This document shows, in pieces, positions 1,469 to 56,430 of a stretch of DNA of 64,000 bases. The notes below the pieces were generated by a model. That model was not told the DNA's origin. It worked only from the letters and a program-made list of their open reading frames with translations, and ran no database searches. Position 1 is the first letter of the stretch. Every line of letters begins with the position of its first letter. The stretch covers positions 1 through 64,000 of the forward strand of contig JADBYQ010000025.1 of NCBI GenBank assembly GCA_020402945.1. The letters are read 5' to 3'. The translations under genes and the position numbers were made by a program. This stretch comes from Cytophagales bacterium. Lineage in GTDB: Bacteria > Bacteroidota > Bacteroidia > Cytophagales > Cyclobacteriaceae.

Positions 1469-2812
1469 ATGAAATCAAAGGACCTACGCCTTCAAACCGG
1501 CTACAAGCAAATACTTAGTTTGGCGATGCCGATCTCATTGGCGTTGATTGTCCCTCAAATCAATTTCATTACCAACAACGTCTTTCTGGGAGGATTGGGC
1601 GAAAAGGCGTTGGCCAGTGCGGCCATCACCGGAGTCTATTACCTGATCTTTGCTGTGATCGGTAGTGGCTTAAACAATGGACTGCAATCGTTGATCGCGC
1701 GCAAAGCAGGAGAAAACCAACCGAAGGAAATTGGTAAGCTGTTTTATCATGGTGTGTGGGCTGCTCTGGGAGTCTCGTTCATTGGAATTTTGATTAGCTA
1801 TACGTTGGCGCCCATGATTTTGCGCGCCACCATTCACAATCAGGTGATAGCTGAAGAAGTGATTGGATTTATTTTTATCCGTATCTGGGGTTTGCCTTTT
1901 CTGTATCTGTATGTCATGCGCAATGCGCTTTTGGTCGGAACAAACCAAACAAAATTTTTAGTATGGGGTACACTAACTGAAGCCATTGCCAACATCTTTT
2001 TCGACTATGCTTTTATTTACGGTCACTTTGGTTTTCCGAAAATGGGTTTCAATGGTGCAGCGTATGCTTCCATCATTGCAGAAGCAACCGGCTTGCTGGT
2101 CATCTTTGCCGTCATTCATGCAAAGGGAATCAACAAAGCCTTTGGGCTATTTGAAAGTTGGAAATTAGAACTCAGCTCTATCAAGTTGATTCTGTTTAAA
2201 TCAACGCCACTCATTTTACAATTCGCACTCAGCATTGTGACGTGGGAATATTTTTACATTCTGATCGAGCACCATGGCGCGCGCGATTTGGCTGTTTCCA
2301 ATACGATGCGAAATGTATTTGGCCTTGCCGGGATTTTTTCGTGGGCCTTTGCGGCCACCGCCAATACGATGGTGAGCAATGTGATTGGCCAAGGCAAACA
2401 AGAAGAAGTAATGCCCCTGGTGAAACGCATCGCCAAAGTGAGCGCCAGTTTTTCAATAACGTTAATTGTTATTCTCAATATTTTCCCAGGCACGTTGCTC
2501 TCGATGTTTGGCCAGGGCGAAGATTTCATTGCCTACGCCACTCCTGTTTTACGAGTGGTGTCTTCCGCCTTGTTCCTTCAATCATTCTCTGTGGTGTGGC
2601 TCAATGCAGTCACTGGTTCAGGAAATACAGTGGTCAATCTGATTATTGAAATCGTAACTCTTTTTGCCTACATACTCTATGTTTACCTCGTACTCGAAGT
2701 ATGGAACATGTCTATCACGTGGGGTTGGGTGAGCGAATGGGTTTATTGGATTTGCATGTTCTCGATGGCCTTTTGGTATATGCGGTCGGGAAAGTGGAAG
2801 AATAGAAATTGA
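1469..2812 (+). CDS. MATE family multidrug/metabolite efflux transporter
   Basis: A 447-residue inner-membrane protein with about 12 hydrophobic helices in two repeated halves, the normal size and layout of MATE antiporters, which export drugs or metabolites in exchange for Na+ or H+. The N-terminal region (SLAMPISLALIVPQ, then a loop with GGLGEKALASAAI) is typical of the first MatE domain; the second begins near residue 235. The ATG at 1469 follows a TAnnTTTG box. The final 20 codons (2738-2797) recur as stray fragments at 4507-4566 and, more decayed, at 5542-5606 (see findings). Substrate is unknown. Confidence 0.93.
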   Translation: MKSKDLRLQTGYKQILSLAMPISLALIVPQINFITNNVFLGGLGEKALASAAITGVYYLIFAVIGSGLNNGLQSLIARKAGENQPKEIGKLFYHGVWAALGVSFIGILISYTLAPMILRATIHNQVIAEEVIGFIFIRIWGLPFLYLYVMRNALLVGTNQTKFLVWGTLTEAIANIFFDYAFIYGHFGFPKMGFNGAAYASIIAEATGLLVIFAVIHAKGINKAFGLFESWKLELSSIKLILFKSTPLILQFALSIVTWEYFYILIEHHGARDLAVSNTMRNVFGLAGIFSWAFAATANTMVSNVIGQGKQEEVMPLVKRIAKVSASFSITLIVILNIFPGTLLSMFGQGEDFIAYATPVLRVVSSALFLQSFSVVWLNAVTGSGNTVVNLIIEIVTLFAYILYVYLVLEVWNMSITWGWVSEWVYWICMFSMAFWYMRSGKWKNRN

Positions 2813-2837
2813 AATTTTTATCGGCAATTCATGAAAT

Positions 2838-3884
2838 TCATTCAGAATTCTGCTTTTCAAAATCTATCATCCACTTTTTTCTTGGCAATCCGCCACCATA
2901 GCCCGTGAGGTCGCCATTTTCTCCTATAATCCGATGGCAAGGAATGATAATAGCAATGCGGTTGCGACCGTTAGCCGAGGCAACAGCCCTCACAGCAGTC
3001 GGACATTCCATCCTGATGGCCAATTGCTTGTAAGAGATCGTCTTTCCGTATTGTACTTGCTGCAATTTTTTCCAAACCTCATTTTGAAAATCAGTACCAG
3101 GCGTATGAAGTGGAACCGCAAAGACTTTTCTGGTTCTGTTAAAGTATTCTAATATTTCTTTCTCTACCTGACTCAAAAATCTATTTTCCCCTGGAAGTAT
3201 AACGGCATTCAATCGTTTCTTCAACTCTTCAAATTCTGTTTCCAACATTCTGCGATTGGTGAATTCTAATAGACAAATGCCTTGTTTGGTGGCACATGCA
3301 AACATCGGGCCGAGTGGCGTGGTGAAGCGCGTAATATTAATAATGGTTTTATCTTTCGAAGCAGTTGGCGCCTTACCAACAATCGCGCGAAAGCTACCAT
3401 TGAAGCCACTCAACGATTGATACCCTGTATCAAAGGCGGAGACGGTAACTGTTTGGCCATTGCCGATTTTGGTAAAAGCAGCGTTGATGCGAAGCATGCG
3501 CTGAAATGCCTGAAAGCTCATATTGTGATTCTTTTGAAACCACCTGCGTACCTGAATGGGTTCAATTTTTCTCCTTCTCAAATCTGCGTCTTTCAATCGC
3601 AACTCTACGTTCGCACTAATTTCGTCAATCAAAAGCTGGATGTGATAGGGCGTTTTATTGGCTTGCTCCATCGGCTTGCAAACAAGGCAAGGCCGAAAGC
3701 CTTGATGAATGGCCTCTTGTGCCGATTCATAAAACTCAACGTTCTCTGGCTTAGGCTTTCGAGCGGGGCAAACAGGTCTACAAAAAACACCTGTGGTTTT
3801 TACTGCTGTTACAAATAGCCCTTCAAACGAAGGATCTTTTCGAAACATGGCATCATATTTTTCTTGAAATGTTAACTTGCTCAT
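2838..3884 (-). CDS. ada: Bifunctional Ada: DNA methyl repair and transcription activator
   Basis: A 348-residue Ada protein that removes methyl groups from DNA phosphotriesters and from O6-methylguanine, and activates the adaptive response. The N-terminal zinc domain has Cys35, Cys39, Cys66 and Cys69 (FCRPVCPAR and PCLVC), with Cys35 in the place of the E. coli methyl acceptor. An AraC-type helix-turn-helix follows (about 80-180; RRWFQKNHNMSFQAFQRMLR). The C-terminal methyltransferase domain has the active-site IPCHRI with Cys316 and the downstream GYGGGLPRKKW. All modules are present, so the protein should be functional. The start overlaps the stop of the upstream outer-membrane-type gene as ATGA, so the two are probably co-translated. 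The gene converges on MATE. Confidence 0.96.
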   Translation of the reverse strand: MSKLTFQEKYDAMFRKDPSFEGLFVTAVKTTGVFCRPVCPARKPKPENVEFYESAQEAIHQGFRPCLVCKPMEQANKTPYHIQLLIDEISANVELRLKDADLRRRKIEPIQVRRWFQKNHNMSFQAFQRMLRINAAFTKIGNGQTVTVSAFDTGYQSLSGFNGSFRAIVGKAPTASKDKTIINITRFTTPLGPMFACATKQGICLLEFTNRRMLETEFEELKKRLNAVILPGENRFLSQVEKEILEYFNRTRKVFAVPLHTPGTDFQNEVWKKLQQVQYGKTISYKQLAIRMECPTAVRAVASANGRNRIAIIIPCHRIIGENGDLTGYGGGLPRKKWMIDFEKQNSE

Positions 3885-4387
3885 GACTTGCTTTTGATGA
3901 TTGGCAATGAATAGTTGAATATGATGCGCGAATTTAAGCTGAGGGTGTCGTCATAAAAAGCAGCCCCTATGGTTAAAGCTATCGCAAATGCCCCAAAATG
4001 AAAGGGCCGCACCAATACAGGGCTGATGCCTACCGTTTGTACCCAATAGCTTTTCTTGTCTTGCTGTGCAGGAAAATACGTTGCTTCGCCAAACCAGTTT
4101 GTTACAAATAACCAATTGTCTGGGCTTTGCCTGTTGTAAAGAGCTGAACCAAAATAACTGTAATGCCCAACCACATTAGTATTTCCAATAAATGACCCTA
4201 CATCAACAAAGGCTTTTTTGTATCGTAAAGTGAGACCCGTTGAAATAAGAGGTGCATAAGAAATAGTGGGCTTGGTGAAATTATAATTTACTACTTGGGG
4301 AAGGCGAATGAATAAATCAATACCCATTTTTTGTGCATGAGCAAACTGAGCGCTGCATAGTATGATTACATAGAGAATTCCTTTCAT
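3881..4387 (-). CDS. Secreted outer-membrane-type protein, unknown function
   Basis: 168 residues with a clear signal peptide (MKGILYVIILCSAQFAHAQ) and alternating hydrophobic and aromatic strands (for example LRYKKAFVDVGSFIG and FHFGAFAIALTIGAAFY) ending in a hydrophobic strand. This suggests a small beta-barrel or lipid-facing periplasmic protein. I do not recognise a family. Its stop overlaps the ada start (ATGA), an unexpected partner for a repair gene, which suggests cotranscription but not a shared function. Confidence 0.7.
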   Translation of the reverse strand: MKGILYVIILCSAQFAHAQKMGIDLFIRLPQVVNYNFTKPTISYAPLISTGLTLRYKKAFVDVGSFIGNTNVVGHYSYFGSALYNRQSPDNWLFVTNWFGEATYFPAQQDKKSYWVQTVGISPVLVRPFHFGAFAIALTIGAAFYDDTLSLNSRIIFNYSLPIIKSKS

Positions 4388-4505
4388 GGCTAATAAAATT
4401 TATTGCAAATGAAAAGAAACGCTTGGCTACTTGACTACCGAAAAATGAACACGCATTTTTTTATTTTAACTTCAATCGAATTTTGGTGATAATCAAGTCA
4501 ATTTT

Positions 4506-4566
4506 ATGGGTCTATTGGATTTGTATGTTCTCGATGGCCTTTTGGTATATGTGGTCAGGTAAGTGG
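4506..4566 (+). pseudogene. Stray copy of the MATE gene 3' end (copy 2)
   Basis: These bases match 2737-2797, the last coding part of the MATE gene. The 20 codons from TGG at 4507 differ at only five bases, and four of the five changes are synonymous; the only amino-acid change is Arg to Trp. The similarity begins abruptly at 4506 and fades after 4566. Such silent divergence shows that the fragment came from a MATE gene that had been under selection, not from random decay of a recent local copy. It lies between two unrelated minus-strand genes and has no start codon or upstream domain. Confidence 0.85.
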
Positions 4567-4582
4567 CAAACTACCTCCTTTA

Positions 4583-5233
4583 TCAGAAAATAAAGCCAAC
4601 CAAAAACGCCAAATTTGAACTCGCAAAAGTCTTGTCGCCAATGCCACTGACTTCACCTCTTCGATTGTCTTGTTCATACTCTATTCCAATAGTAATCCGG
4701 TTTTTCCTGTTGGTTGGCAAGTCAAGCGCATAGCCGATACCCACTGCATAGCCACTGCCGATGGCAAACTGATGATTAAATTCTAAATTTGCAGTGGATC
4801 GATATTTTTGAGTAAACTGAGTTATGAAAAAGTAATCAGCTTGTAAGAATAGCCCCCGATGAGCCATTTTGTGAAAGGGAAAGTAACGTGCCGACACGGC
4901 AACGCCCCAATAATTAAAGAACATCTCGCGCCCATTATCCCCTTTTGAAGGTGCTGCTCCCAGCGATTTGTACTTCATTCCAATTACGGTGTGATTGATT
5001 TTTTTAAACTTGTGGTAAGCTGCTAGGGTTGCGAGAAAGCCGCCCGAACTGCTGAAGTTTCCGGCTTCATAGTCTTCAGAAAGTCCTTCTCCAAAATAAT
5101 TCGTTCCGTAACCAAATCGAATTTCTGCAAATGTAAACGATGTATCCCTCTTTACATTTTGCGCGTATGTACTGCCTGCCAGCACGATCAAGATGAAGAT
5201 ATACAACGGGTGTTTGAACGATGAGCAAATCAT
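4583..5233 (-). CDS. Outer-membrane beta-barrel-type protein
   Basis: 216 residues from the ATG at 5233, starting with a signal peptide (MICSSFKHPLYIFILIVLAG, cleavage after STYAQ). A TTG at 5272 would add 13 residues in front of the signal, which is less likely. The mature part has repeated amphipathic strands (TFAEIRFGYGTNYFGEG, AVSARYFPFHKMAHRGLFLQ, ITIGIEYEQ) and a final hydrophobic strand SSNLAFLVGFIF, as in 8- to 10-stranded porin-like barrels. Function is unknown. It stands alone, bounded on both sides by fragments of the MATE 3' end. Confidence 0.75.
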   Translation of the reverse strand: MICSSFKHPLYIFILIVLAGSTYAQNVKRDTSFTFAEIRFGYGTNYFGEGLSEDYEAGNFSSSGGFLATLAAYHKFKKINHTVIGMKYKSLGAAPSKGDNGREMFFNYWGVAVSARYFPFHKMAHRGLFLQADYFFITQFTQKYRSTANLEFNHQFAIGSGYAVGIGYALDLPTNRKNRITIGIEYEQDNRRGEVSGIGDKTFASSNLAFLVGFIF

Positions 5234-5541
5234 AAATTTTTGTTTTGAATAATAAATTTTTTGATGGCTCAAATTTGGAACTCATCATGCAAAGAATGAA
5301 TTGATTTGAGTTAACTTCAGTGAATTCGCTTCTTTACTTAACCCAAATCAAGCGAATACTGTCTGGGCAATTGACTCTAATTAAGAAATTGCCTCAAGTA
5401 TCATCGGTCAGTTTGTACTAAAGCCTCCCATTGAGGGCAATCTTATCAAGAAAGTGCAGGGGGTATCTTAGAAAATTTGGATATTCGCCAATGTTTCCAA
5501 TTGCTAAAACTCCAACGCATAAAAAACATTTGTAGAGATGA

Positions 5542-5606
5542 GTAAGCGATGGCGCTTAATCTTTATGCCCTCGATAGCCTTTTGGTACATGCTGTCAGGA
5601 GGGTGG
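5542..5606 (+). pseudogene. Decayed copy of the MATE gene 3' end (copy 3)
   Basis: Over the last 14 shared codons (5565-5606) 34 of 42 bases match the MATE gene, and the peptide core AFWYM plus a final Ser-Gly-x-Trp is still readable. Weaker similarity with a one-base gap extends back to 5542. It shares the TCA serine codon with copy 2 rather than TCG of the intact gene. No start or stop in frame makes a gene of it. Confidence 0.7.
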
Positions 5607-5652
5607 AATCCAGGGGCGCGTTGTAACACTTTTTTAACTTCTCACCTTTCCT

Positions 5653-5660
5653 TAAATTTG
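5653..5660 (+). promoter_or_regulatory. Candidate -7 box of the toxin-antitoxin operon
   Basis: TAAATTTG matches TAnnTTTG and lies 20 bp before the ATG at 5681, giving a leader of about 14 nt. No convincing -33 TTTG is seen. Confidence 0.4.
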
Positions 5661-5680
5661 AAAGAGTTTAATTAAACCAT

Positions 5681-5911
5681 ATGTATACAACCTATCATTT
5701 GAATTCGGCTGAAGAGGTTAACTCAGATTTACTAGATTCTATTAAGGCTACATTTAAGTCTAGGCCCATCACAATAGTCGTGGAAGAAGATGATTTGGAG
5801 CTAACTCCCGAGATGAAAGAAATTTTAGATGAAAGATTGAAGGAAAACGAGAAAGACTACGTCAGTTCAGAAGAGTCTATTCGTCAACTAAACCAAAAAT
5901 ATGGTTTATAA
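5681..5911 (+). CDS. Putative antitoxin of a RelE/ParE-type module
   Basis: 76 acidic residues. The N-terminal part (ITIVVEEDDLELTPEMKEIL, about 31-50) looks like the short strand-helix unit of addiction-module antitoxins, and the acidic helical tail (LKENEKDYVSSEES) would wrap around the toxin. It overlaps the next gene by 11 bp, the usual order of antitoxin first. There is no obvious DNA-binding domain, so autoregulation may need another factor. The call rests mainly on size and context. Confidence 0.75.
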   Translation: MYTTYHLNSAEEVNSDLLDSIKATFKSRPITIVVEEDDLELTPEMKEILDERLKENEKDYVSSEESIRQLNQKYGL

Positions 5912-6197
5912 AGTAATCGTGTCTCCGAGAGCTCAAAAAGAAATAGAAAATTCGATCGATTATTACACAGCGAATAGTACTTATGCCCCTCAAAATTTTG
6001 TTGCGTCTTTGAAAAATAGCTACTCTCAATTAGCAGTCAATCCATTTTATAGACTGCGATATAAAGAAGTACGGTCTTTAAAGCTTCGAAAGTTCCCCTT
6101 TTCTCTATACTTCGTTATTCATGAATCCAGCAATACCGTAAGAGTACTTTCGTGTTTTCATGATAAGCGAGACCCCATAAAACTTCCTAGAAGCTGA
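5901..6197 (+). CDS. RelE/ParE family toxin
   Basis: 98 basic residues with the ParE/RelE pattern: an opening strand (YKVIVSPRAQKEI), a helical hairpin with YY (residues 19-20), a strand region YRLRYKEVRSLKLRKFPFSLYFVI and the final VLSCFHDKRDP. Members cleave ribosome-bound mRNA (RelE) or poison gyrase (ParE), and the sequence does not tell which. The start lies inside the antitoxin gene, so translation is coupled. Its last 11 bases overlap the convergent trans-sulfuration gene end. Confidence 0.88.
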   Translation: MVYKVIVSPRAQKEIENSIDYYTANSTYAPQNFVASLKNSYSQLAVNPFYRLRYKEVRSLKLRKFPFSLYFVIHESSNTVRVLSCFHDKRDPIKLPRS

Positions 6198-7326
6198 TTA
6201 AATCACTCAAGGCCTGTTTTAGATCAGCAATCAAACTATTGCTATCTTCTAAGCCCACACTTAGTCTAATCAAATTATCCGGTGTTGGTGAATCCGGGCC
6301 TTCTACACTCTTGCGATGCTCCAATAAACTTTCCGTGCCACCCAAACTAGTGGCATTGGTAAATACTTTTACGCGTTGGGCAACTTTGATAGCATCTTCT
6401 TTCGTGCCTCTTACTAAAAATGACACCATGGCCCCGAAATCGCTCATTTGTTTTTTGGCTACTTCGTGCCCTGTGTGTGTGGGCAGTCCGGGATACAATA
6501 CTTTTTCTACTTTAGGATGCGTTGATAAAAATAGAGCTACTGCTTTTGCGTTGCTCAAGTGTTGCGTCATGCGCGGAACAAAACTCCGGATGCCCCGCAT
6601 CAACAACCAACAATCAAATGGACTCGGTATCGCACCTTGTATGTGTTGGATGTGACGAATGCGTTCCCACATTTCGTCCTTTCGTGCTGTAATCAACGCG
6701 CCTCCCGTCATATCACTATGTCCACCCAAATATTTGGTGGTACTGTGCATCACAATATCTGCACCGAGTACAATTGGATTCTGTAAGGCGGGGGTGGCAA
6801 ACGTATTATCGACAGCCACTTTGATATGATGTCGCTTGCAAATGGAGATCACTGAAATTAAATCTACAATTCGAAGTTGTGGATTGGTGGGTGATTCAGT
6901 CCATACCAACCTGGTGTTTGGCTGAATCGATTTAGGTAGATTGTTGATATCACTCAGGTCAACAAATGTTACTTGTAATCCCCATGGCATAAAGATCTCA
7001 CGAAGCATGGTGCGAATCCCGGCATATGCATCGAAGTTGATGATTACATGATCGCTTGGCCGTAAACTTAAAAAGACGGCATTGGCGGCTGCGCTGCCAC
7101 TGCTGAATGCGGCTGCATCTTCGCCTTGTTCCAATTGTGCCAATATTGTTTCAAGAGAGGTGCGTGTTGGGTTTGATTCGCGACTGTAAATATGCCCACT
7201 TGGGTATTCGCCTGTGGGCGGATAATGAAATGTAGATGAAAAATAAAGGGGAGATGTAACAGCTCCCGTTGAAGGATCGGGTGTGGCGCCAGCATGGGCG
7301 CAAATGTTCTTGAAGTGCTCGGTCAT
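6187..7326 (-). CDS. PLP-dependent trans-sulfuration enzyme (cystathionine synthase/lyase family)
   Basis: 379 residues, the normal length of the Cys/Met-metabolism PLP family (cystathionine gamma-synthase, beta/gamma-lyase, methionine gamma-lyase). Visible motifs are YSRESNPTR (48-56, phosphate loop), SSGSAAANAV (75-84), the Asp of AVDNTFATP that holds the pyridine ring, and the Schiff-base Lys198 in HSTTKYLGGHSD. The C-terminal LGGTESLLEHR matches the substrate-binding segment. Which reaction it catalyses cannot be decided from sequence alone. It stands as a single gene facing the toxin-antitoxin pair. Confidence 0.93.
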   Translation of the reverse strand: MTEHFKNICAHAGATPDPSTGAVTSPLYFSSTFHYPPTGEYPSGHIYSRESNPTRTSLETILAQLEQGEDAAAFSSGSAAANAVFLSLRPSDHVIINFDAYAGIRTMLREIFMPWGLQVTFVDLSDINNLPKSIQPNTRLVWTESPTNPQLRIVDLISVISICKRHHIKVAVDNTFATPALQNPIVLGADIVMHSTTKYLGGHSDMTGGALITARKDEMWERIRHIQHIQGAIPSPFDCWLLMRGIRSFVPRMTQHLSNAKAVALFLSTHPKVEKVLYPGLPTHTGHEVAKKQMSDFGAMVSFLVRGTKEDAIKVAQRVKVFTNATSLGGTESLLEHRKSVEGPDSPTPDNLIRLSVGLEDSNSLIADLKQALSDLISF

Positions 7327-7445
7327 TTCAATTTTCTTTTTTCAAAGTTAATTTATTAGTCAGTATTGATTGGTTCATTCATTTTTATTCTTCCTCAAAA
7401 AATCACAACTTGGGTTTGTTAAGTAATCATAAACCCTGACAAATT

Positions 7446-7754
7446 ATGAAAAAGGTTATTCTTCTCAGTTTATTCTTATTCTTTGGGTTAGCCATCAAAG
7501 GCTTCAGCCAAACGGTATATGCCTCGGCCAAAGGCGAAAAATACCACACCGCGGATTGCAAACTTTCGGGCGATGCCGATGGAATGACGTTGGCCGCTGC
7601 GAAGAAAGCAAGCAAGGGTCCTTGTGGTGTTTGTAAACCTGACGATCACACCAAAGACAAGGTAGCTCAATGCAGTGGAAAAACAGCCGATGGCACCAAG
7701 TGCAAACGCATGACTGCAAGCAAATCCGGCAAGTGCTATCAACATAACAAGTAA
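7446..7754 (+). CDS. Small secreted Cys-rich protein, DUF5763-like tail
   Basis: 102 residues with a signal peptide (MKKVILLSLFLFFGLAIKGF, then SQ). The first half contains KYHTADCKLSG and GPCGVCKP, a His/Cys pattern (H-x3-C ... C-x2-C) likely to bind metal and also found beside secreted nucleases. The second half, AQCSGKTADGTKCKRMT followed by GKCYQH, is the short DUF5763-type motif with Cys-x7-Cys and Cys-x2-His. The aldo/keto reductase start follows one base after the stop codon, so they are probably cotranscribed. Function is unknown. Confidence 0.72.
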   Translation: MKKVILLSLFLFFGLAIKGFSQTVYASAKGEKYHTADCKLSGDADGMTLAAAKKASKGPCGVCKPDDHTKDKVAQCSGKTADGTKCKRMTASKSGKCYQHNK

Positions 7755-7755
7755 C

Positions 7756-8628
7756 ATGTATATTCAACCGCTTCATCCACAAGGGCCAAGTTTTTCGCGC
7801 ATCATCACCGGTGTATGGCGGTGGCACACGTTGTCTACTGAAACGGTGGAACGGTTGATTCATACTTCGCTAGATGAAGGTATCACCACTTTCGACCATG
7901 CCGATATTTATGGAGATCATAGTTGTGAAGAGTTGTTTGGCAACGCATTGAAAAAAGACGCGTCTCTTCGAGAGAAGATTCAGCTTGTCACAAAATGTGG
8001 CATCAAGTTTAGTTCTGCCAAGCGGCCTGCTACCTGGGTCAAACATTACGACACATCGGAAGAGCATATCACCTGGTCGGTTGAGAATTCATTAAAGATG
8101 TTGCATACCGATCATCTTGACTTGCTGTTAATTCACCGACCCGATCCACTTCTTGATCCGCATGAAGTATCGGAAACATTTGTGAAGTTAAAGGCAGCTG
8201 GTAAGGTCTTGCACTTTGGCGTTTCGAATTTCACGCCCTCACAATTTGAAATGCTGCAGCATTTTTTACCGTTCCCATTGGTCACTAATCAAATTGAGAT
8301 TTCGCTTTCGCGGATCGATCCACTTTTCAATGGAGATTTGGACTTAATGCTGAAGCATGGGGCAAGCGCAATGGCATGGTCACCACTGGGTGGTGGAAAG
8401 CTCCATTTTGAAGAACGTGTTTGGTTTGCAAAAGCCGCCAAGTACAATGCTTCTTATAGTCAGTTGGCACTGGCATGGTTGCTTAAACATCCTTCCCATA
8501 TTTTTCCCATCCTTGGCACAACTAAACCAGAGCGAATCACTGAAGCGGCTAAATCGGTCGACATTGATTTAGATAAACAGGATTGGTTTGAAATGTTGAA
8601 GTGGGTGATGGGGAGGGAAGTAGACTAG
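7756..8628 (+). CDS. Aldo/keto reductase, YdhF-like
   Basis: 290 residues forming one TIM-barrel oxidoreductase that uses NADPH. The catalytic tetrad is visible: Asp and Tyr in FDHADIYG (about 49-56), Lys in LVTKCGI and His in LLLIHRPDP. Cofactor-binding segments AWSPLGGGKL and ILGTTKPERITEA follow. The DHADIYG/HRPDPL pattern and short length are closest to the E. coli YdhF branch. Substrate is unknown. The next gene starts three bases after its stop. Confidence 0.92.
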   Translation: MYIQPLHPQGPSFSRIITGVWRWHTLSTETVERLIHTSLDEGITTFDHADIYGDHSCEELFGNALKKDASLREKIQLVTKCGIKFSSAKRPATWVKHYDTSEEHITWSVENSLKMLHTDHLDLLLIHRPDPLLDPHEVSETFVKLKAAGKVLHFGVSNFTPSQFEMLQHFLPFPLVTNQIEISLSRIDPLFNGDLDLMLKHGASAMAWSPLGGGKLHFEERVWFAKAAKYNASYSQLALAWLLKHPSHIFPILGTTKPERITEAAKSVDIDLDKQDWFEMLKWVMGREVD

Positions 8629-11263: not shown

Positions 11264-11338
11264 AAAAGAACAGACGGTGCTTAAGTCAAGTAAGTAATTT
11301 GAGAAAGTTTAGCTACCTAACAAGACGTACAAAAACAA

Positions 11339-11815
11339 CTACGCCTTCAGCAAGCCTTTATTTTTCAAAATGCTAGTTAGAAACTTGCGTTCGTTTTCAG
11401 TAGTAAATATTTTGAAGGGTAAATGAATCAATTGCGCCTTATTCACAAAAAGAACAAACGCCTCTTTGGTCACCTTGGCGCTTTTGATTTGATCCCACTT
11501 CATTGGCATGCCTTCGCGAGCATTCAACTTCATCACAATTTGTTGACTGGTAATTTCGTACGAGAATCTCTCAAAAAGCATCTTGCCTTGCTCTAATTGC
11601 GTGACCCCATAAAATTGGATCCACCAAAAAAGTAAATACAACCCCGCAGCGGTAAATGCGCCAATGAACCACCAAATGCTTGGGATCCACAAATACAAAA
11701 GGCAGATGGCTACCACAATCAAACTTACCCACCACTGCTGAAGCAGGATGTTTCGCAACGCCATACGGATGTAGTCTTTCTTTTCTAAGCGATAGTTTTT
11801 GGTCTTAACAATCAT
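11339..11815 (-). CDS. YcxB-like membrane protein
   Basis: 158 residues with two adjacent membrane helices (about 30-75: WWVSLIVVAICLLYLWIP and WFIGAFTAAGLYLLFWW), then a soluble domain with FERFSYEITSQQIVMKL and MKWDQIKSAKVTKEAFVLFV. This two-helix plus PH-like sandwich layout is that of YcxB-like proteins. Function is unknown. It is followed downstream, after a gap with the MITE-like element, by the DUF2442 gene. Confidence 0.75.
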   Translation of the reverse strand: MIVKTKNYRLEKKDYIRMALRNILLQQWWVSLIVVAICLLYLWIPSIWWFIGAFTAAGLYLLFWWIQFYGVTQLEQGKMLFERFSYEITSQQIVMKLNAREGMPMKWDQIKSAKVTKEAFVLFVNKAQLIHLPFKIFTTENERKFLTSILKNKGLLKA

Positions 11816-11902
11816 AATTCTAACTGAATGGGTCGCAAAAATAGCTGATTTTTTGGAAGGATGTATAGTTAGTTTTAGGCAAAGAAGGAAACAGCCCTCA
11901 GG

Positions 11903-12766
11903 TCATTTAACCACCTTTAGACTCAGGTCAAGGCTTTTGGTAGAATGCGTCAACGCACCCATTGAAATAAAATCCACGCCAGTTTCGGCCACTGCACGCA
12001 ATGTGTTTTCGGTAATTCCCCCACTTGCTTCCGTTTTGTATTTTCCATTAATCAAGTGGACGGACTTTCGCATATCATTCAAGCTCATGTTATCCAGCAT
12101 GATCGTATCAACACCCCCCACACGGATTACTTCTTCCACTTCTTTGAGGTTACGCACCTCAATCTCAATTTTTAAATCTTTATTTTTCTCCTTGAGGTAT
12201 CGGTGAGCATTTTCAATAGCTTTTTGCACACCCCCGGCCATGTCAATGTGATTGTCTTTGAGCATTACCATGTCATACAAAGCAAACCGATGATTCTGAC
12301 CTCCTCCAATTGCCACCGCCCACTTTTCCATGGCGCGAAAATTCGGAGTCGTCTTGCGCGTGTCGAGCAGTTTGGTGGAAGTCCCTTCAAGCATTTGACA
12401 AAGCGCTTTTGTGTGGGTAGCTATACCGCTCATCCGCTGCATACAATTGAGTACTAAACGTTCGGCCGATAAAATGGACTGTGCCTGACCGGTGACTTCA
12501 AAAGCAACTTCACCCCGGTGAACCAAGTCTCCATCGTGCTTGAAATAGGTTACTTGAAGGGCGGGATCAACTTGCTGAAATATTTTTTCTGCCAACGAAA
12601 GGCCGGCAATCACACCCTCATCTTTCACCAATAAACGCGCCTTGCATGGAGTATTTTTCGGGATGGCGCCTAGAGAGGAGTGATCTCCTTCACCAATGTC
12701 TTCCCCTAAAGCGGACTGTATAAATAAATGAATGGCCTCCTCTGTGAGGTACGCTGGTGAAATCAT
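11903..12766 (-). CDS. nadC: Nicotinate-nucleotide pyrophosphorylase (carboxylating)
   Basis: 287 residues. It converts quinolinate and PRPP to nicotinate mononucleotide in de novo NAD synthesis. Clear family segments are EDIGEGDHSS (about 22-31), SAERLVLNCMQRMSGIAT, LDTRKTTPNFR, GGGQNHRFALYDMVMLKDNHI and the C-terminal EASGGITENTLRAVAETGVDFISMGALTHS. These include the Arg, Lys and His residues that bind quinolinate and PRPP. The start overlaps the stop of the DUF4783 gene (ATGA). nadA and nadB are not in the window. Confidence 0.97.
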   Translation of the reverse strand: MISPAYLTEEAIHLFIQSALGEDIGEGDHSSLGAIPKNTPCKARLLVKDEGVIAGLSLAEKIFQQVDPALQVTYFKHDGDLVHRGEVAFEVTGQAQSILSAERLVLNCMQRMSGIATHTKALCQMLEGTSTKLLDTRKTTPNFRAMEKWAVAIGGGQNHRFALYDMVMLKDNHIDMAGGVQKAIENAHRYLKEKNKDLKIEIEVRNLKEVEEVIRVGGVDTIMLDNMSLNDMRKSVHLINGKYKTEASGGITENTLRAVAETGVDFISMGALTHSTKSLDLSLKVVK

Positions 12767-13155
12767 TCTTTGATAAAGCTGATTTCGTGAACAAAGTATT
12801 TTTTGTCTGATTCTTTTACGCGCATGAGTACGCTGTAGCTATCGCTGCCACTTTGATATTTGCCAATAGCAAACTTAAGCCCGCTCGGTGAAGAGCCGGT
12901 GTGGACAATGTTGAAATCGGCAATTGGGTGTTTCTTGAAAAAATCGCCCAATACAAACTCTGCCTGAGCCTTGCTGTAATTATTTACCTCACCCTCAATG
13001 TTGATGTCTGCCGATTGGTTGAAGTACTTTACTGCTTCTTTGGCATTATTGGCCTTAATGGCATCCTTAATAGGCGCAAAAATTTCTGCCTGCCCCCACA
13101 CGTTCGCAACGGGAATAGCCAAAAACACAATCCATAACCACTTTTTTGTTCTCAT
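12763..13155 (-). CDS. DUF4783 secreted protein
   Basis: 130 residues from the ATG at 13155, beginning with a signal peptide (MRTKKWLWIVFLAIPVANVW then GQ). An ATG at 13185 would add ten residues in front of the signal, which is unlikely. The mature part has the NTF2-like pattern of DUF4783: an N-terminal helix (IFAPIKDAIKANNAKEAVKYF), NYSKAQAEFVLGDFFKKHP, then strands ending HEISFIKE. It is probably periplasmic and its function is unknown. It is coupled to nadC by a 4-bp overlap, a common pairing in this phylum. Confidence 0.85.
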   Translation of the reverse strand: MRTKKWLWIVFLAIPVANVWGQAEIFAPIKDAIKANNAKEAVKYFNQSADINIEGEVNNYSKAQAEFVLGDFFKKHPIADFNIVHTGSSPSGLKFAIGKYQSGSDSYSVLMRVKESDKKYFVHEISFIKE

Positions 13156-13294
13156 AGGCTCTAAGTTAGGCCAAAAGTATGCCATAATCGGGGTTTGAAA
13201 AAGATATTACAGGTCAAATTAGCAGGAACATTTAGGAATAACATCGTATCTACTCATTGGCATAGTTTTGATCAGCTATTATCATGAATGAGCC

Positions 13295-13302
13295 TATATT
13301 TG
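13295..13302 (+). promoter_or_regulatory. Promoter -7 box of gpmI
   Basis: TATATTTG matches TAnnTTTG exactly, 13 bp before the ATG at 13316. A TTTG at 13267-13270 could serve as the -33 box, though its 24-bp spacing is slightly long. Confidence 0.55.
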
Positions 13303-13315
13303 AGACTTATTTTAA

Positions 13316-14851
13316 ATGGCTATGAATAAAAAAGTGCTATTGATGATATTGGATGGCTGGGGCATTGCTAAAAACCTAAAAGTTTCTGCCATCGACCACG
13401 CCCAGACTCCCTACATCAACTCTTTATACCAGAAGTATCCACATAGTAAATTAGAAGCCTCTGGTTTAGCGGTTGGGCTTCCTGCCGGGCAAATGGGCAA
13501 CTCCGAAGTGGGCCATATGAATATTGGTGCGGGAAGAGTAGTTTACCAGGACCTAGTGCGAATCAATAAAGCTGTAGAAGAAAAAGAGTTAGATGAAAAT
13601 CCAACACTGCTGGCCGCGTTTGATTATGCAAAAGCGAATAACAAGTCCGTGCATCTCATTGGTCTTGTTAGTGACGGTGGCGTTCACTCACATGTAGAGC
13701 ACGTGAAAGGGCTTTGCACGATAGCTAAAAATCTGAACGTAAAAAATCTATTTATCCATGCTTTTACCGATGGCCGAGATACAGACCCGAAAGGCGGATT
13801 TGGATACCTGTCTGATTTACAAAATCACCTCAACAAAACAACGGGTCAACTGGCCAGCATTGTGGGGCGCTACTTTGCCATGGACCGCGACAAGAGATGG
13901 GAACGCGTGAAGTTAGCCTATGATCTTTTGGTAAAAGGTGATGGCGAAAAGTCGACTGATCTATTGGCCACGCTACAAAAATCATATGATGCAGGCGTCA
14001 CCGATGAATTCATTAAACCCATCGTTGCTGTTGATGCTAACGGCAAACCGATTACAACCATACAGGAAGGCGATGTGGTCATCTGTTTTAATTTCCGCAC
14101 CGATCGCGGACGAGAGATTACCATGGCGTTGACCCAACAAGATTATCCCGAGCAGGGGATGAAGAAATTGAAACTCTATTACGTAACCCTCACCAACTAC
14201 GATGACTCCTTCAACGATGTGAAGGTGATGTTCGATAAAGATAACTTGGAAAATACATTAGGAGAAATCGTTTCGAAAGCAGGCAAGAAACAAATTCGTA
14301 TTGCTGAGACAGAGAAGTATCCACATGTGACGTTTTTCTTTTCAGGAGGGCGAGAAGATGTATTCGAAGGTGAATCGCGGTTAATGTGCCCCTCGCCAAA
14401 AGTGGCCACCTACGATCTAAAGCCGGAGATGAGTGCCAATGACATTAAGGACGAAATCATTCCTGAACTGGAAAAAGGATCTGCTGATTTTATCTGTTTG
14501 AATTTTGCCAATCCAGACATGGTTGGACACACAGGCGTATTTTCAGCGGCCGTTAAAGCAGTGGAGACAGTTGATAAATGCAACGAGGCGGTAACAGAAG
14601 TAGCGCGCAAAAATGGCTATGCCGTTATCATTATTGCAGATCACGGTAATGCTGATATTATGGTCAACGAGGATGGCAGCCCAAATACTGCACACACCAC
14701 TAACCTGGTACCTTGCATTTTAGTAGATGACTCCAAGACCTATTCTAAAATCAATGACGGCAAACTGGGTGATTTGGCACCGACTATTCTTACGTTAATG
14801 GGAATTACTATTCCTGGTGAAATGACCGGAAAGGTATTAGTGGAAAAATAG
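13316..14851 (+). CDS. gpmI: 2,3-bisphosphoglycerate-independent phosphoglycerate mutase
   Basis: 511 residues. It interconverts 3- and 2-phosphoglycerate in glycolysis and gluconeogenesis using two Mn ions. The alkaline-phosphatase-like fold is visible from LMILDGWG (9-16), the phospho-acceptor Ser63 in MGNSEVGH, DGRDTDPKG, the metal-binding IIIADHGNADIM and the C-terminal NTAHTTNLVP. Length is normal for the family. A second ATG two codons later (13322) is equally possible as start. It heads a run of plus-strand genes. Confidence 0.98.
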   Translation: MAMNKKVLLMILDGWGIAKNLKVSAIDHAQTPYINSLYQKYPHSKLEASGLAVGLPAGQMGNSEVGHMNIGAGRVVYQDLVRINKAVEEKELDENPTLLAAFDYAKANNKSVHLIGLVSDGGVHSHVEHVKGLCTIAKNLNVKNLFIHAFTDGRDTDPKGGFGYLSDLQNHLNKTTGQLASIVGRYFAMDRDKRWERVKLAYDLLVKGDGEKSTDLLATLQKSYDAGVTDEFIKPIVAVDANGKPITTIQEGDVVICFNFRTDRGREITMALTQQDYPEQGMKKLKLYYVTLTNYDDSFNDVKVMFDKDNLENTLGEIVSKAGKKQIRIAETEKYPHVTFFFSGGREDVFEGESRLMCPSPKVATYDLKPEMSANDIKDEIIPELEKGSADFICLNFANPDMVGHTGVFSAAVKAVETVDKCNEAVTEVARKNGYAVIIIADHGNADIMVNEDGSPNTAHTTNLVPCILVDDSKTYSKINDGKLGDLAPTILTLMGITIPGEMTGKVLVEK

Positions 14852-53378: not shown

Positions 53379-54719
53379 TTATTTCAACGTTAACTGTTGT
53401 CCTTTCACAGATTCGTAAAATTTCCCATTGTCATAAATCAATCCCCCATTGACAAACGTCTGAACCACCTTGGTTTGAAAGGTGGTGCCCAGCAATGGCG
53501 ACCAGCCGCATTTGTACAAAATGTTGTCCTGGCTTACTATCCACGGCTTATCCAAATCTACCAATGTGAGGTCGGCAAAATAGCCTTCTCGTATAAACCC
53601 GCGGTTAGCAATATGGTACAAAATGGCCGGGTTATGGCACATCTTCTCTGCAATTTTCTCAAGCGATATTTTTCCCTGTTTATAAAACTCAAGCATAATA
53701 TTTAATGAATGCTGAACAATGGGCGCGCCCGACATAGATTGAAAATAGGGCTTTTGCTTTTCCTCTAAAGCATGTGGCGCATGGTCAGTCGTTACAATAT
53801 CAATTCGATCATCGAGCAGCGCTTTCAAAAGTCCTTCTTTATCCTTTTCGGTTTTGATGGCAGGATTCCACTTGATTAAGTTGCCCAGCCGTTTGTAGTC
53901 GACATCCGAAAACCAAAGATGATGCACAGATACTTCGGTGGTTATTCGCTTTTGTGTTAACGGAATATCATTACGAAACAAGTGTGTTTCGGCCTCGGTA
54001 CTCAGATGTAAAATGTGAAGCCGTGCATTGTGTTTTGTGGCCAATGCAATGGCATCTTTTGATGCTTCGAAGCAACCTTGCGCACTTCGAATGATAGGAT
54101 GAAATTCAATTGGCACGTCTTCTCCATATTTTTCTCGAAAGATTCTTTCATTTTCTTCTACTAATTTTTCTTTCTCTGCGTGGATCGCGATAATGGATTG
54201 GCAGTTGGCAAAAAGCTTCTCTAGAATTGCCGGATTATCTGCCAGCAGATTTCCCTTTTTGGTAAAGTACAGACCATCATCTGAAACTCCAATAAGATTA
54301 GACGTGTCTGTCTGAATGACGGTATCAATGTTATCTGCGTTCACTCCGAGAAAAGAGGAATAGTTGACAAGTGATTTTTCAGCAGCTATCTGATGCTTTT
54401 GTTCAAGTAGTTCAATTGACAAAACATTAGGTACAGTGTTGGGCATATCAATAACCGAGGTGACACCACCAGCGATGGCGGCTCTGCTTTCTGTGTAAAA
54501 GTCACCTTTGTGGGTTAGGCCTGGGTCTCGAAAGTGAACCTGACCGTCAATAATGCCTGGGAATAAATACTTTCCAGAGCCATCGATAACCAAGCTGTTT
54601 TCGGTGGGGTGAACGTTTCCAATCTTATCAATGAACTGGTCTTTAATAAGCAGGTCGGCTACCCGCAGCTGACCTTCGTTAACAAGCGTTACGTTTTTTA
54701 TTATAGTGTCTTTGCTCAT
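53379..54719 (-). CDS. pyrC: Dihydroorotase
   Basis: 446 residues from the ATG at 54719. Amidohydrolase that closes carbamoyl aspartate to dihydroorotate in pyrimidine synthesis. DGQVHFRDPGLTHKGDFYTE (about 58-77) has the HxR-type metal and substrate motif, HILHLSTEAETH holds a metal His, and TTDHAPHALEEKQ the catalytic Asp and His. The class I type is supported by length; allantoinase is the alternative but less likely. The gene name is by function only. Confidence 0.93.
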   Translation of the reverse strand: MSKDTIIKNVTLVNEGQLRVADLLIKDQFIDKIGNVHPTENSLVIDGSGKYLFPGIIDGQVHFRDPGLTHKGDFYTESRAAIAGGVTSVIDMPNTVPNVLSIELLEQKHQIAAEKSLVNYSSFLGVNADNIDTVIQTDTSNLIGVSDDGLYFTKKGNLLADNPAILEKLFANCQSIIAIHAEKEKLVEENERIFREKYGEDVPIEFHPIIRSAQGCFEASKDAIALATKHNARLHILHLSTEAETHLFRNDIPLTQKRITTEVSVHHLWFSDVDYKRLGNLIKWNPAIKTEKDKEGLLKALLDDRIDIVTTDHAPHALEEKQKPYFQSMSGAPIVQHSLNIMLEFYKQGKISLEKIAEKMCHNPAILYHIANRGFIREGYFADLTLVDLDKPWIVSQDNILYKCGWSPLLGTTFQTKVVQTFVNGGLIYDNGKFYESVKGQQLTLK

Positions 54720-54813
54720 ATCGTTCAATTTTTGACGTGACGCAAGTTTATAAAAAAATCATGGATGCCTGTAATTGTTATCGATCAAAAACTACTAACT
54801 GGAAGAAAGATTC

Positions 54814-55038
54814 ATGGAGACTAAAAAATCTTCCCGTTTCGGAAAGTATGCATTAGCGATCGGCATTGCTGCTGGTTTTGTTTTTCTGGCAGCTCTCTTT
54901 ACTGTTCTCGATTCAAGTTCTGGTATTTCTGATACGATGATTTGTGTAGCGATTGCAGCCAGTTCTATGTCTGTATTTCTTTCTTCGATGGAAACGCAAA
55001 AGAAAAAGTCTTGCAAAATATCAACTCCTAAAGTATGA
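54814..55038 (+). CDS. Small membrane protein, first of a pair
   Basis: 74 residues: a basic start (METKKSSRFGKY), helix AIGIAAGFVFLAALFTVL, a short loop and a second helix MICVAIAASSMSVFLSS, then a basic tail. Its stop overlaps the next ATG as ATGA, so the two small proteins are made together. No family recognised. Confidence 0.7.
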   Translation: METKKSSRFGKYALAIGIAAGFVFLAALFTVLDSSSGISDTMICVAIAASSMSVFLSSMETQKKKSCKISTPKV

Positions 55039-55319
55039 CCACAACAAAAGAAAACGACAAGCCGACAGACCTTACCTTTACATACAACCGATTTTTGTAT
55101 GGAGCGTTTGTCGCTCTAGGTCTTTACTTCCTATTGGCCAAAAATGATGTTTCCACGGCCATGTCAAACTTCGGCATTACCTTAATCTTTGACCCCTTTG
55201 ATCAAAAAGAGATGTGGAACAATCGACCCGCTTACCAACAGATTTGGTTAATCGTGCACATTAGCATTGTGTTCGGCTTATTGGGTATTATGCTTTTTAA
55301 CTGGATGGTGGCAAAATAG
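55035..55319 (+). CDS. Small membrane protein, second of a pair
   Basis: 94 residues with two helices (FLYGAFVALGLYFLLA and IWLIVHISIVFGLLGIMLFNW) joined by a 40-residue loop with ITLIFDPFDQKEMWNNRPAY. Translation is coupled to the previous gene (ATGA). Its last 23 bases overlap the end of the convergent GH130-like gene. Family not recognised. Confidence 0.75.
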   Translation: MTTTKENDKPTDLTFTYNRFLYGAFVALGLYFLLAKNDVSTAMSNFGITLIFDPFDQKEMWNNRPAYQQIWLIVHISIVFGLLGIMLFNWMVAK

Positions 55320-56430
55320 GGGAAACAGCCACCGCAATCTTAGAATCAGCCGTGCCAAAATACAAAAACCATTTCCCATGAAAAGGAACTAGCCCTTCCA
55401 CAAAACAAACCTGATTGATCTGTCCGGAAATTTCATAAGGCTTATCAGGACGCAGAAAATTTTTCTCCAAACGGTCGATTAGTTTAGAAGGATCATTTTT
55501 GTCAAACAAAGCCTGACCTGCACAGTAAGCTCCTTTGGCAATTGTACTATCGCCACCTACATCGAGGTTCATGCCATTGTAAATCAATACAATCCCTTTG
55601 TCAGTCAACAAAGCATAGGGTCCACTTTCAACTAACCGACTATCAAAATAATTTTTACGTGGTTGAAGGATCGATTTGAATTTTTGATTTTCGTCAACAA
55701 CAGGCTGCCAATGAATCAAATCGTCAGACGTAGCGAGAAATAAATCGGTGTCTCCAAAATACATCCAGTACTTCCCGTTGATTTTTTTAGCAACTATTTT
55801 TTCTCCCACTCGCTTGGCTACAATTGCTCCTGACTTACTCCACGAGTCAACATATTTCCCCTGCAATACCAGCCCGTGTTTTATCCACTTCACCAAATTG
55901 GTGGAAGACGCAACACATAACCTCGCCACTTTTCCATCATAAGCAGTATACGTCATGATGTAGGTTCCATCATCTCTTTCCACAATGCGTGGATCTTCAA
56001 TTCCCCCCTCCCATTCGTATATTTTCATTTCATCTTCTGCGGGAAATAAAATGGGTTCCTTCTTACGAATGAAACGCAAACCGTCCGTGCTTACTGCCAA
56101 TCCCAATCGAGAAGTGCCCGCATATTTTCCGATATTATCTTCTGCCCGATAAATCAGAAAGACAGAATCGTTGCGAACGACTGCGGCTGGGTTAAAAACA
56201 TCCTTTTCTTCCCAGCTTATTTCCTTTTTCAAGATAGGACAAGTAAACATCCTATCGCCAGCTGCTAGAATAGGATTCAGGCTATCAACTTTTACAAATG
56301 GTAGAATGGCCCAAGCGGTGTCTTTGATTTCCTTTGCCTGATTTTCATTTTGAGGCGTGCAACCAAAGAGTAAAAGCAATCCAACAACGCTGCTAAATAG
56401 AAGAAGTGTTTTAAAATAGTGAAAGTTCAT
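55297..56430 (-). CDS. GH130-like glycosidase/phosphorylase lipoprotein
   Basis: 377 residues with a lipoprotein signal (SVVGLLLLFGC, Cys24). A five-bladed beta-propeller of the GH130/GH43 type follows: FNPAAVVRNDSVFLIYRAED, the EWEGGIEDPRIVERDDGTYI blade with the GH130 EDPR core, and GKYWMYFGDTDLFLATSDDL. GH130 enzymes phosphorylate or hydrolyse beta-mannosides; the activity here is not decidable. Surface or periplasmic. Confidence 0.88.
   Translation of the reverse strand: MNFHYFKTLLLFSSVVGLLLLFGCTPQNENQAKEIKDTAWAILPFVKVDSLNPILAAGDRMFTCPILKKEISWEEKDVFNPAAVVRNDSVFLIYRAEDNIGKYAGTSRLGLAVSTDGLRFIRKKEPILFPAEDEMKIYEWEGGIEDPRIVERDDGTYIMTYTAYDGKVARLCVASSTNLVKWIKHGLVLQGKYVDSWSKSGAIVAKRVGEKIVAKKINGKYWMYFGDTDLFLATSDDLIHWQPVVDENQKFKSILQPRKNYFDSRLVESGPYALLTDKGIVLIYNGMNLDVGGDSTIAKGAYCAGQALFDKNDPSKLIDRLEKNFLRPDKPYEISGQINQVCFVEGLVPFHGKWFLYFGTADSKIAVAVSPILPPSS

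Follow-up and report, generated by a model that had tools for sequence, protein, structure and literature searches.

In a genome of a Cytophagales bacterium (Cyclobacteriaceae; assembly GCA_020402945.1), the gene for a MATE family transporter is followed by two further copies of its own 3' end. We consider it likely that these copies, which we call scars, are displaced 3' ends of the resident gene, produced by imports that had one homologous and one illegitimate joint. The DNA that we analyzed, hereafter the window, is positions 1 to 64,000 of the forward strand of contig JADBYQ010000025.1 (genome G000; other G numbers denote the genomes compared). The gene order at the locus is MATE, Ada, barrelA, copy 2 of the MATE end (scar 1), barrelB, copy 3 (scar 2), a toxin-antitoxin (TA) pair and a Cys/Met metabolism enzyme (CysMet). 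A preliminary description of this DNA had given the modules in the same order, and MatE, Ada, ParE and Cys_Met_Meta_PP were identified by Pfam. The features are as follows.

1469..2812, forward strand: MATE family transporter, the anchor gene (Pfam MatE, 4.2e-34; 97% in amino acids to G025 and G010)
2838..3884, reverse strand: Ada-like methyltransferase/regulator, presumed cargo of the youngest import (Pfam Ada_Zn_binding, DNA_binding_1)
3881..4387, reverse strand: barrelA, probably a small secreted-like protein, presumed cargo of the youngest import
4388..4505, no strand: linker between barrelA and scar 1, with an insertion-sequence-like element at this spot in G075
4506..4593, forward strand: scar 1, apparently the displaced former 3' terminus of the resident MATE, ending in the TAA stop at 4591-4593; its 68-bp match to MATE 2737-2804 is 88% identical
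4583..5233, reverse strand: barrelB, presumably imported earlier as cargo, with its stop codon within scar 1
5258..5389, no strand: barrelB upstream region, with 70-80% DNA matches to the upstream region of a TonB-receptor gene that lies in the same interval in G011, G080 and G071
5546..5613, forward strand: scar 2, a decayed and older copy of the MATE 3' end (core 5570-5608) that G025 and G075 share
5681..5911, forward strand: antitoxin-like small gene, presumed oldest cargo (76-aa ORF; 99% in G025 and G075)
5901..6197, forward strand: ParE-type toxin, presumed oldest cargo (Pfam ParE_toxin, 1.4e-7)
6187..7326, reverse strand: CysMet, a PLP enzyme of Cys/Met metabolism that forms the conserved right-hand border of the hotspot (Pfam Cys_Met_Meta_PP, 1.8e-122)

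Because barrelA, barrelB and the antitoxin-like gene have no Pfam match, those names are provisional.

MATE positions 2737-2804 are repeated on the same strand at 4506-4573 (88% identity) and again at 5546-5613, where identity is 60% ungapped and 85% in the well-aligned core. Alignment and a whole-genome search confirmed the repeats previously placed at 4507-4566 and, in decayed form, near 5542-5606. Queried with MATE 2680-2830, this search returned, apart from the gene itself, those two places (E 1.3e-18 and 2.5e-5) and no further tail copies elsewhere in the genome. With scar 1 masked, the MATE tail scored 48 against the interval, a value reached by none of 1048 control segments taken from the window from 8700 onward and from the MATE body on both strands (best, 39). 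Scar 1 extends to 4593, where it terminates with the stop codon that a G025-type MATE allele has; it also contains the barrelB stop codon (4583-4585, minus strand). Similarity to the MATE tail is 88-92% for scar 1 and 60-85% for scar 2, and the older remnants lie farther from the anchor, as in a sequential displacement stack.

The state before the scar 1 event is preserved in G025, where the tail of the 97% identical MATE leads directly into barrelB (86%). Positions 11269-14098 of locus L058 of G025 are colinear with 4506-7334 of the window at 91%; in G025 the part that corresponds to scar 1 is the end of the intact MATE, and scar 2 lies farther along the colinear DNA. Because the G025 tail is colinear from scar 1 onward, we read scar 1 as the old tail of the resident MATE, displaced by Ada-barrelA; scar 2 must be older than this event since G025 also has it, whereas scar 1 has no G025 counterpart as a scar. 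The modules arrived stepwise, as had been proposed, but the scar is the resident's old tail and not the imported end for which it had been taken. Judged by position, the tail that the complete MATE gene bears today would be the imported one, and the present MATE 3' end (about 2735-2812) probably arrived with the Ada-barrelA module. The stop codon in scar 1 and the DNA downstream of it belong to another MATE allele, which is not the pattern of fragments matching only the local MATE with random changes. G025 and the window are continuous through MATE, and a search for a donor tract within the window MATE gave no clustered signal. The MATE body and the downstream DNA are both about 91% identical to G025, with no identity jump at scar 1, and an allele with MATE-Ada-barrelA and no scar 1, as expected of a donor, was not found among the relatives compared. 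If complete MATE copies had stood in tandem and then lost their bodies by deletion, tails in the same orientation would likewise be left. This origin is highly improbable, given the pre-insertion state in G025, the presence of tails only, at five different genes, and the fact that no second MATE of the family was seen at the locus in the relatives compared.

The linker in front of scar 1 showed no significant MATE homology in a shuffle test, and we rejected an upstream extension of scar 1 into it. Of 1000 shuffles, 80 for the G075 linker and 116 for the window linker scored as high against the window MATE tail, and 70 did so when the G075 linker was set against the G010 tail; the three remaining comparisons gave 617-671. 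The insertion-sequence-like element of G075 has inverted ends and a repeated flank, seen in L034/L129. Between the window and G075, bins 4434-4570 contain about 20 substitutions, and the neighboring bins contain 0. An open frame passes through the linker and scar 1, and all three differences between the window and G075 scars are synonymous, which pure neutral decay does not predict. A translated micro-ORF in scar 1 is nevertheless not supported: the linker codons differ non-synonymously, and just three scar sites vary. A palindrome upstream of barrelB was rejected as a dispersed repeat, being present as a single copy in the genome.

The MATE-CysMet interval is an import hotspot. Nine arrangements occur in 13 genomes (one of the nine is cut by a contig end and one lacks the right border gene), in agreement with the cassette-like hotspot suggested earlier. 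CysMet lies immediately 3' of MATE in G012, G062 and G059. Elsewhere cassettes are shared among lineages in differing combinations: S41 in G076, TonB receptor-NmrA-Crp in G011 and G080, DUF4386-barrelB in G060 (barrelB, 69%) and a DUF2252 cassette in G010, assigned because its DNA is 67% similar to the gene in G071; G071 stacks S41, DUF2252 and TonB receptor-NmrA-Crp. Ada (at E<=1e-60) and barrelA are each present in two of 62 genomes of the genus, G000 and G075. Among the 13 genomes, the three-copy layout of the window recurs in the close relative G075 alone and in no distant relative. Scars were detected in three of the 13; the other 10, including G071 with its three stacked cassettes, show none in a search that does not pick up scars with the degree of decay seen in G025 scar 2, and the expectation that every import leaves a scar does not hold at this level of detection.

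Many genomic islands use the ends of tRNA genes as attachment sites and restore the gene. A site-specific recombinase or small integrative element attaching at gene 3' ends in this manner would account for a gene end that is kept whole and for repeats spanning from inside the gene to its end. The target genes are five and unrelated, scar lengths are unequal (about 60-150 bp), most hotspot alleles have no repeat, and no integrase or transposase was found among the interval genes identified, except for the insertion-sequence-like element in the G075 linker. The MATE end as a general attachment site was rejected, since 80 other MATE loci contained no tail copy and gave 26 weak matches of 14-27 bases, in a search that likewise did not recover G025 scar 2, which is decayed, and in which many flanks were short and of unequal length. 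We therefore regard such an element as very unlikely. Alternatively, double crossovers in both flanking core genes could move whole interval alleles, with scars made once elsewhere and carried along. Scars are undetected in most hotspot alleles, and one and the same scarred allele, lying within near-identical tracts, is common to the window and G075. In support of displacement by import, near-identical tracts alternate with tracts of about 10% divergence between the window and G075 at both MATE and proC; assembly switching could account for part of this mosaicism because all the named close genomes are metagenome assemblies. Double crossover explains how alleles spread but not how scarred alleles are born; as the sole explanation it is extremely improbable, and it is likely an addition to displacement by import rather than exclusive with it.

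Displacement is not special to MATE. The same tail-scar architecture was found in this genome and its relatives at ispD (ispD-TA-tail), a radical-SAM gene (radical SAM-YefM/YoeB-tail-Fic), GH130 (GH130-genes-tail) and proC (proC-genes-tail). The gene in front of the cassette has an intact 3' end at all five loci, and its orthologues occur in cassette-free relatives. Cassettes without a detected scar also occur, namely ispD-TA behind ispD in G080, and radical SAM-TA in G012, G080 and G076 (there followed by Fic). Empty ispD alleles are present in G025 and G010, whose tail and downstream DNA match the scar and its downstream DNA at 96% over 1563 and 426 bases, and the ispD scar starts abruptly. 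Similarity alone cannot name the resident ispD copy, because the last 53 bases of the intact tail, with 1 difference from G025/G010, are nearer to these alleles than the scar; the resident copy is identified by the stop codon and by contiguity with the downstream DNA. At the radical-SAM joint, an old scar, about 5 shared bases were judged by eye, at best suggestive of microhomology. The G075 GH130 gene lacks about 264 bases that G000 has, and its scar lies inside an 88-aa ORF; G000 has part of the G075 GH130 cargo, without the scar.

Insertion with long target duplication has reportedly been described by Nobusato (2000) for restriction-modification genes of Helicobacter pylori. In such an event, a de novo cassette would duplicate 60-150 bases of the resident target, and both tails would stem from one resident allele. 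The outline is the same: the available portions of the H. pylori reports describe inserts, often addiction-type modules, between direct repeats of about 100 bp with no mobile element (PMC1643837, PMC3874152); here the repeats are of that order, and TA pairs lie directly between the copies at two of the five loci. Differences at random codon positions would be expected, however, and this was not observed. Four of five differences between MATE 2738-2797 and 4507-4566 are synonymous, as the preliminary description had noted (P 0.0013-0.0039 for at least four of five under random mutation). Pooled over six blocks in five genes, 29 of 43 scar-versus-tail differences are synonymous and 14 are not (expected synonymous, 10.2; 29 reached in none of 4000 simulations), with two of the six blocks not significant alone. 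Moreover, the GH130 scar is 91% identical to the G076 tail over 181 bp and the intact GH130 74%, so that the scar appears to belong to a different allele group than the intact gene. The ispD-TA pair is 73% identical to that of G080 and the ispD scar 93% to its tail, and the association is apparently much older than the scar. A common resident origin of both repeats is thus contradicted by the synonymous excess and the GH130 allele mismatch, with ispD similarity alone giving a mixed picture, and we consider long target duplication unlikely. In contrast to the H. pylori case as far as those reports present it, the two copies here look like different alleles, one of which continues into the empty-allele backbone where relatives were compared.

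We also scanned for tail copies. A scan of 115 loci (2.11 Mb, 1832 genes; the window counted twice) gave downstream non-coding tail rows, besides MATE and proC, at L075 (34 bases), L076, L080 (a repeat family) and L188 (70% over 106 bases), non-coding meaning no ORF of 90-100 aa or more. A second scan covered 53 stretches (0.90 Mb, 764 genes), overlapping some first-scan loci, with 12 L252 rows left out. A strict recount took in 2.74 Mb in 152 stretches, a few of them overlapping, with 2337 ORFs of 100 aa or more; eight tail copies lay downstream and one upstream, and there were nine head copies. It dropped matches inside another ORF (26), inverted (17), in repeat families (7), beyond 12 kb (7), within 300 bp (6), inside their own ORF (6), short (3), at contig edges (2) or in paralogue fragments (2), and left out the loci L182, L227-L240 and L252, which duplicate other stretches. 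Two of the eight tail matches (L076) adjoin a putative transposase gene, which we take to be REP-associated; six of the nine head matches lie in two-copy loci (L169, L178, L268) and one near paralogues (L278). We claim no tail-over-head bias, and no frequency because the stretches were chosen partly around known loci.

In the displacement scenario, DNA from a relative, carrying MATE and then new genes, would enter the cell as a linear import, presumably by natural transformation, conjugation or transduction. One end would recombine by homology, in or upstream of MATE, and the other, non-homologous end would join illegitimately within the 60-150 bases at the 3' end of the resident gene. MATE would be completed by the incoming tail and so stay whole, and the old tail with all behind it would be displaced downstream. 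Repetition would create a last-in-first-out stack, with the youngest cargo beside MATE and the most decayed tail farthest off. Scar length may be set by the purging of longer repeats and by gene integrity. Homologous recombination at the MATE end, as originally envisaged, would hold for one end, while the other joint looks illegitimate. A scar is a cheap marker of which copy was resident, of the order of cargo arrival and of rough age, and the synonymous test helps to tell import from local duplication; scars also allow older cases of insertion with long target duplication to be re-examined. We advance tentatively, and with more doubt than confidence, the broader idea that 3' ends of housekeeping genes in this genus may be general integrase-free docking points, at which cassettes of a gene plus its followers, some with TA pairs, would leave datable tail scars and give the genome a last-in-first-out import record readable by a displaced-tail scan.

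Minimal mobile elements of Neisseria are variable genes between two conserved genes, without mobility genes. The hotspot likewise has varying genes between the same two conserved genes and no mobility genes among those identified; gene-tail scars and stacks are an added feature here. Homology-facilitated illegitimate recombination, in the parts of the reports available, involves one homologous and one illegitimate end (PMC3240628; PMC2884548). One joint in a recipient-homologous region was found at all five loci, where the process is deduced, unlike in those portions, from repeated natural events with gene-tail scars. The closest parallels are the sequential displacement of T6SS effector-immunity modules in Vibrio cholerae (Kirchberger 2017, PMC5361080) and the orphan cdi segments of Acinetobacter (PMC6336857). 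According to the accessible sections of these reports, a new module arrives beside a conserved upstream anchor, as here, and the old 3' end with its followers is shifted downstream in a 5'-to-3' stack, the proposed mechanism being the same homology-facilitated illegitimate recombination. The anchor there is a polymorphic toxin gene, whereas here the anchors are ordinary genes (MATE, ispD, radical SAM, GH130, proC), the tail stays homologous and the cargo is unrelated. Our observations are best explained by a process that would work like T6SS/CDI displacement, but at housekeeping genes with ordinary cargo. At toxin loci, stepwise displacement that leaves remnants of gene ends was already known; its occurrence at ordinary genes, with pre-insertion and scar-free cassette-bearing relatives, suggests a general route of gene gain.

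The window (G000:C55:1-64000 within its genome) holds three copies of the 3' end of a MATE gene, as an earlier reading had proposed, and a whole-genome search confirmed that these are the only copies in G000. When scar 1, the first left-over copy downstream of the intact gene, was masked, the MATE tail still outscored all 1048 control segments. The interval is arranged as follows.

The MATE interval in the window
1469-2812: MATE gene, start of the interval
After MATE, minus strand: Ada, then barrelA
4506-4593, after barrelA: scar 1, second copy of the MATE end
Between scar 1 and scar 2, minus strand: barrelB
Core 5570-5608, after barrelB: scar 2, decayed third copy of the MATE end
After scar 2: antitoxin-like gene and ParE-type toxin gene (TA pair), then the Cys/Met metabolism enzyme gene (CysMet)

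Neither barrelA nor barrelB has a Pfam match, and "barrel" is a putative name in both. Upstream of barrelB, a palindromic region (TTGATTTGAGTTAA...TTAACCCAAATCAA, 5298-5354) is homologous to a stretch preceding a TonB-receptor gene, next to a Crp-like regulator, in three genomes of the genus (G011, G080 and G071) and is possibly a shared regulatory site. At the contig start, a 111-base tandem repeat of about four copies with decaying identity (26-432) lies downstream of a minus-strand NAD-epimerase-like gene.

The origin of scar 1 is indicated by the related genome G025 (stretch L058, JADBYK010000030), whose MATE is 97% identical to that of the window in amino acids, in which Ada and barrelA are absent, and whose MATE tail adjoins barrelB. 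L058 11269-14098 aligns colinearly with window 4506-7334 at 91%, and the barrelB stop codon, as read from the comparison, overlaps the MATE tail in G025 and scar 1 in the window. Scar 1 terminates (ATCAGAAAATAA, a stop codon) as the G025 MATE gene does and not as the window's own MATE does. Among nine MATE tails tried, the G025 tail aligned best to scar 1 (score 104 versus 97 for the window tail). Scar 1 thus appears to be the former end of the resident MATE, the recipient's own copy before import. The core of the preliminary description, stepwise import at the MATE end, holds, but its direction has to be corrected. Scar 2 is older, because G025 has it too. In G025, the ParE homologue (L058 12445-12958) matches only from residue 30 on and may be truncated or frameshifted, unlike the antitoxin beside it, which aligns in full. 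G075 carries the genes and scars of the window on two contigs (L034/L128 and L129), both of which break inside an insertion-sequence-like element. This element lies in the linker that separates barrelA from scar 1, and its 40-residue end has no Pfam match.

Ends of the insertion-sequence-like element in G075 (inverted ends CAGGGAAATCGCTTTTAA, flank repeat of about 10 bases)
L034, about 13020-13163
L129, 1-150

The same architecture was found at other genes, and the phenomenon reaches beyond the MATE locus of the earlier reading. A first scan found a copy of the proC tail in G079, 2.1 kb downstream behind DUF4389-DUF4870-M48; proC runs straight into a LysR gene in G012 and G059. A second scan (53 stretches, 0.90 Mb, 764 genes) added three loci: ispD and a radical-SAM gene in G000, and GH130, with several cargo genes, in G075. 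A strict recount of the scans also counts head copies, and we draw no conclusion on a tail bias or on how frequent such copies are.

TA pairs flanked by a housekeeping gene and by its displaced 3' end copy (G000)
L255 11489-12895: ispD; cargo a TA pair, antitoxin Pfam match 1.4e-4, slightly short of the cut-off, and no Pfam match for the toxin
L248 16737-18520: radical-SAM gene; cargo YefM/YoeB, then Fic

At these loci the alleles of relatives argue for import rather than local duplication. The ispD tail, stop codon and following DNA of G025/G010 match the scar and downstream DNA of G000 at 96% (1563/426 bases), against 86 and 85% between the ispD bodies. The profile along gene and scar speaks against a simple reading of the 96% match: differences per 100 bases fall from 19 and 26 at the 5' end of the body to about 10, there is one in the final 53 bases of the intact tail, and 12 and 8 occur in the 100 bases that open the scar. 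The ispD scar is identified as resident by its position and stop codon more than by similarity. G080 carries ispD-TA at 73% identity, without room for a scar. Had the scar been of the same age as this association, it should have decayed below the 93% found in G000, so ispD and its cassette probably moved together at a later time. The radical-SAM gene is followed by TA without a detected scar in G012 and G080, by TA-Fic in G076, and directly by the common downstream DNA in G010, G059, G062 and G025 (in G025 by a 32-base match only). Over 181 bases, the GH130 scar of G075 shares 91% identity with the tail in G076, against 74% for the intact gene; the G075 gene lacks about 264 bases present in G000. 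In G000, GH130 (window about 53392-55980, minus strand) is accompanied by the first part of the G075 cargo at 98%, without a GH130 tail scar.

The excess of silent over replacement changes noticed earlier in scar 1 was borne out. Six in-frame ungapped blocks from five genes, chosen by the analyst and leaving out scar 2, gave 29 synonymous and 14 other changes between scar and tail; random mutation predicts 10.2 synonymous changes, and 29 was reached in none of 4000 simulations. With P values that assume independent substitutions, MATE, ispD, GH130 block 1 and radical SAM were each significant (P 0.0002-0.004), and GH130 block 2 (P 0.15) and proC (one change, non-synonymous) were not.

MATE was present at at least 79% identity in 13 of 62 genus genomes, and the interval up to CysMet, read in all 13, showed nine distinct arrangements. 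The variable genes anticipated there were thus found, and the interval is a hotspot.

Contents of the MATE-CysMet interval (Pfam names for G071, G060, G076 and the window; genes in G010, G011, G080 and G025 named by similarity to these)
G012, G062, G059: empty, CysMet directly after MATE
G076: S41 peptidase gene
G010: DUF2252
G011, G080: TonB receptor-NmrA-Crp
G071: S41, DUF2252 and TonB receptor-NmrA-Crp cassettes in a row
G025: barrelB-TA
G060: DUF4386-barrelB, contig ending there
G000, G075: window type
G079: CysMet lost

Ada (E<=1e-60) and barrelA each occur in 2 of the 62 genomes. Apart from the element in G075, no recombinase was seen among those interval genes that were identified. That each import leaves a gene-end scar does not hold for detectable scars: they were found in G000, G075 and G025, but in none of the other ten, including G071, whose gaps between cassettes (14 and 62 bases) leave little room. 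Because the automatic search overlooks scar 2 of G025, it would also pass over scars of similar decay in other genomes.

Between the window and G075, tracts without differences alternate at MATE and proC with tracts of roughly 10% differences, a pattern that fits frequent exchange among lineages; assembly of mixed strains could contribute. In near-identical surroundings, about 20 substitutions cluster in a short tract (bins 4434-4570) that spans the linker and scar 1 and that we read as unexchanged or separately exchanged. A ComEC-type competence gene is present in G000, which says little because such a gene also occurs in 10 of the 14 control genomes, including E. coli.

Sharply bounded divergent tracts versus G075, embedded in near-identical DNA (pronounced mosaicism, or switching between strains during assembly)
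1734-2234
6271-6700
7471-7771

The pattern can most simply be explained by a homologous joint within or upstream of the anchor gene whose end recurs, together with an illegitimate joint in the resident tail. A joint at any other place would disrupt the gene or produce no scar that could be seen, and repeats of greater length would be expected to be lost by recombination. PMC3240628 and PMC2884548 describe such homology-facilitated illegitimate recombination in naturally competent species; it is proposed in PMC5361080 for displacement of T6SS modules, in which the 3' end of the effector is moved back, and likewise in PMC6336857 for cdi orphans. In the open-licence literature searched, we found no paper that describes gene-tail scars at housekeeping genes. 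Stepwise displacement is thus already known from T6SS and cdi loci, whereas its occurrence at housekeeping genes with ordinary cargo appears to be new.
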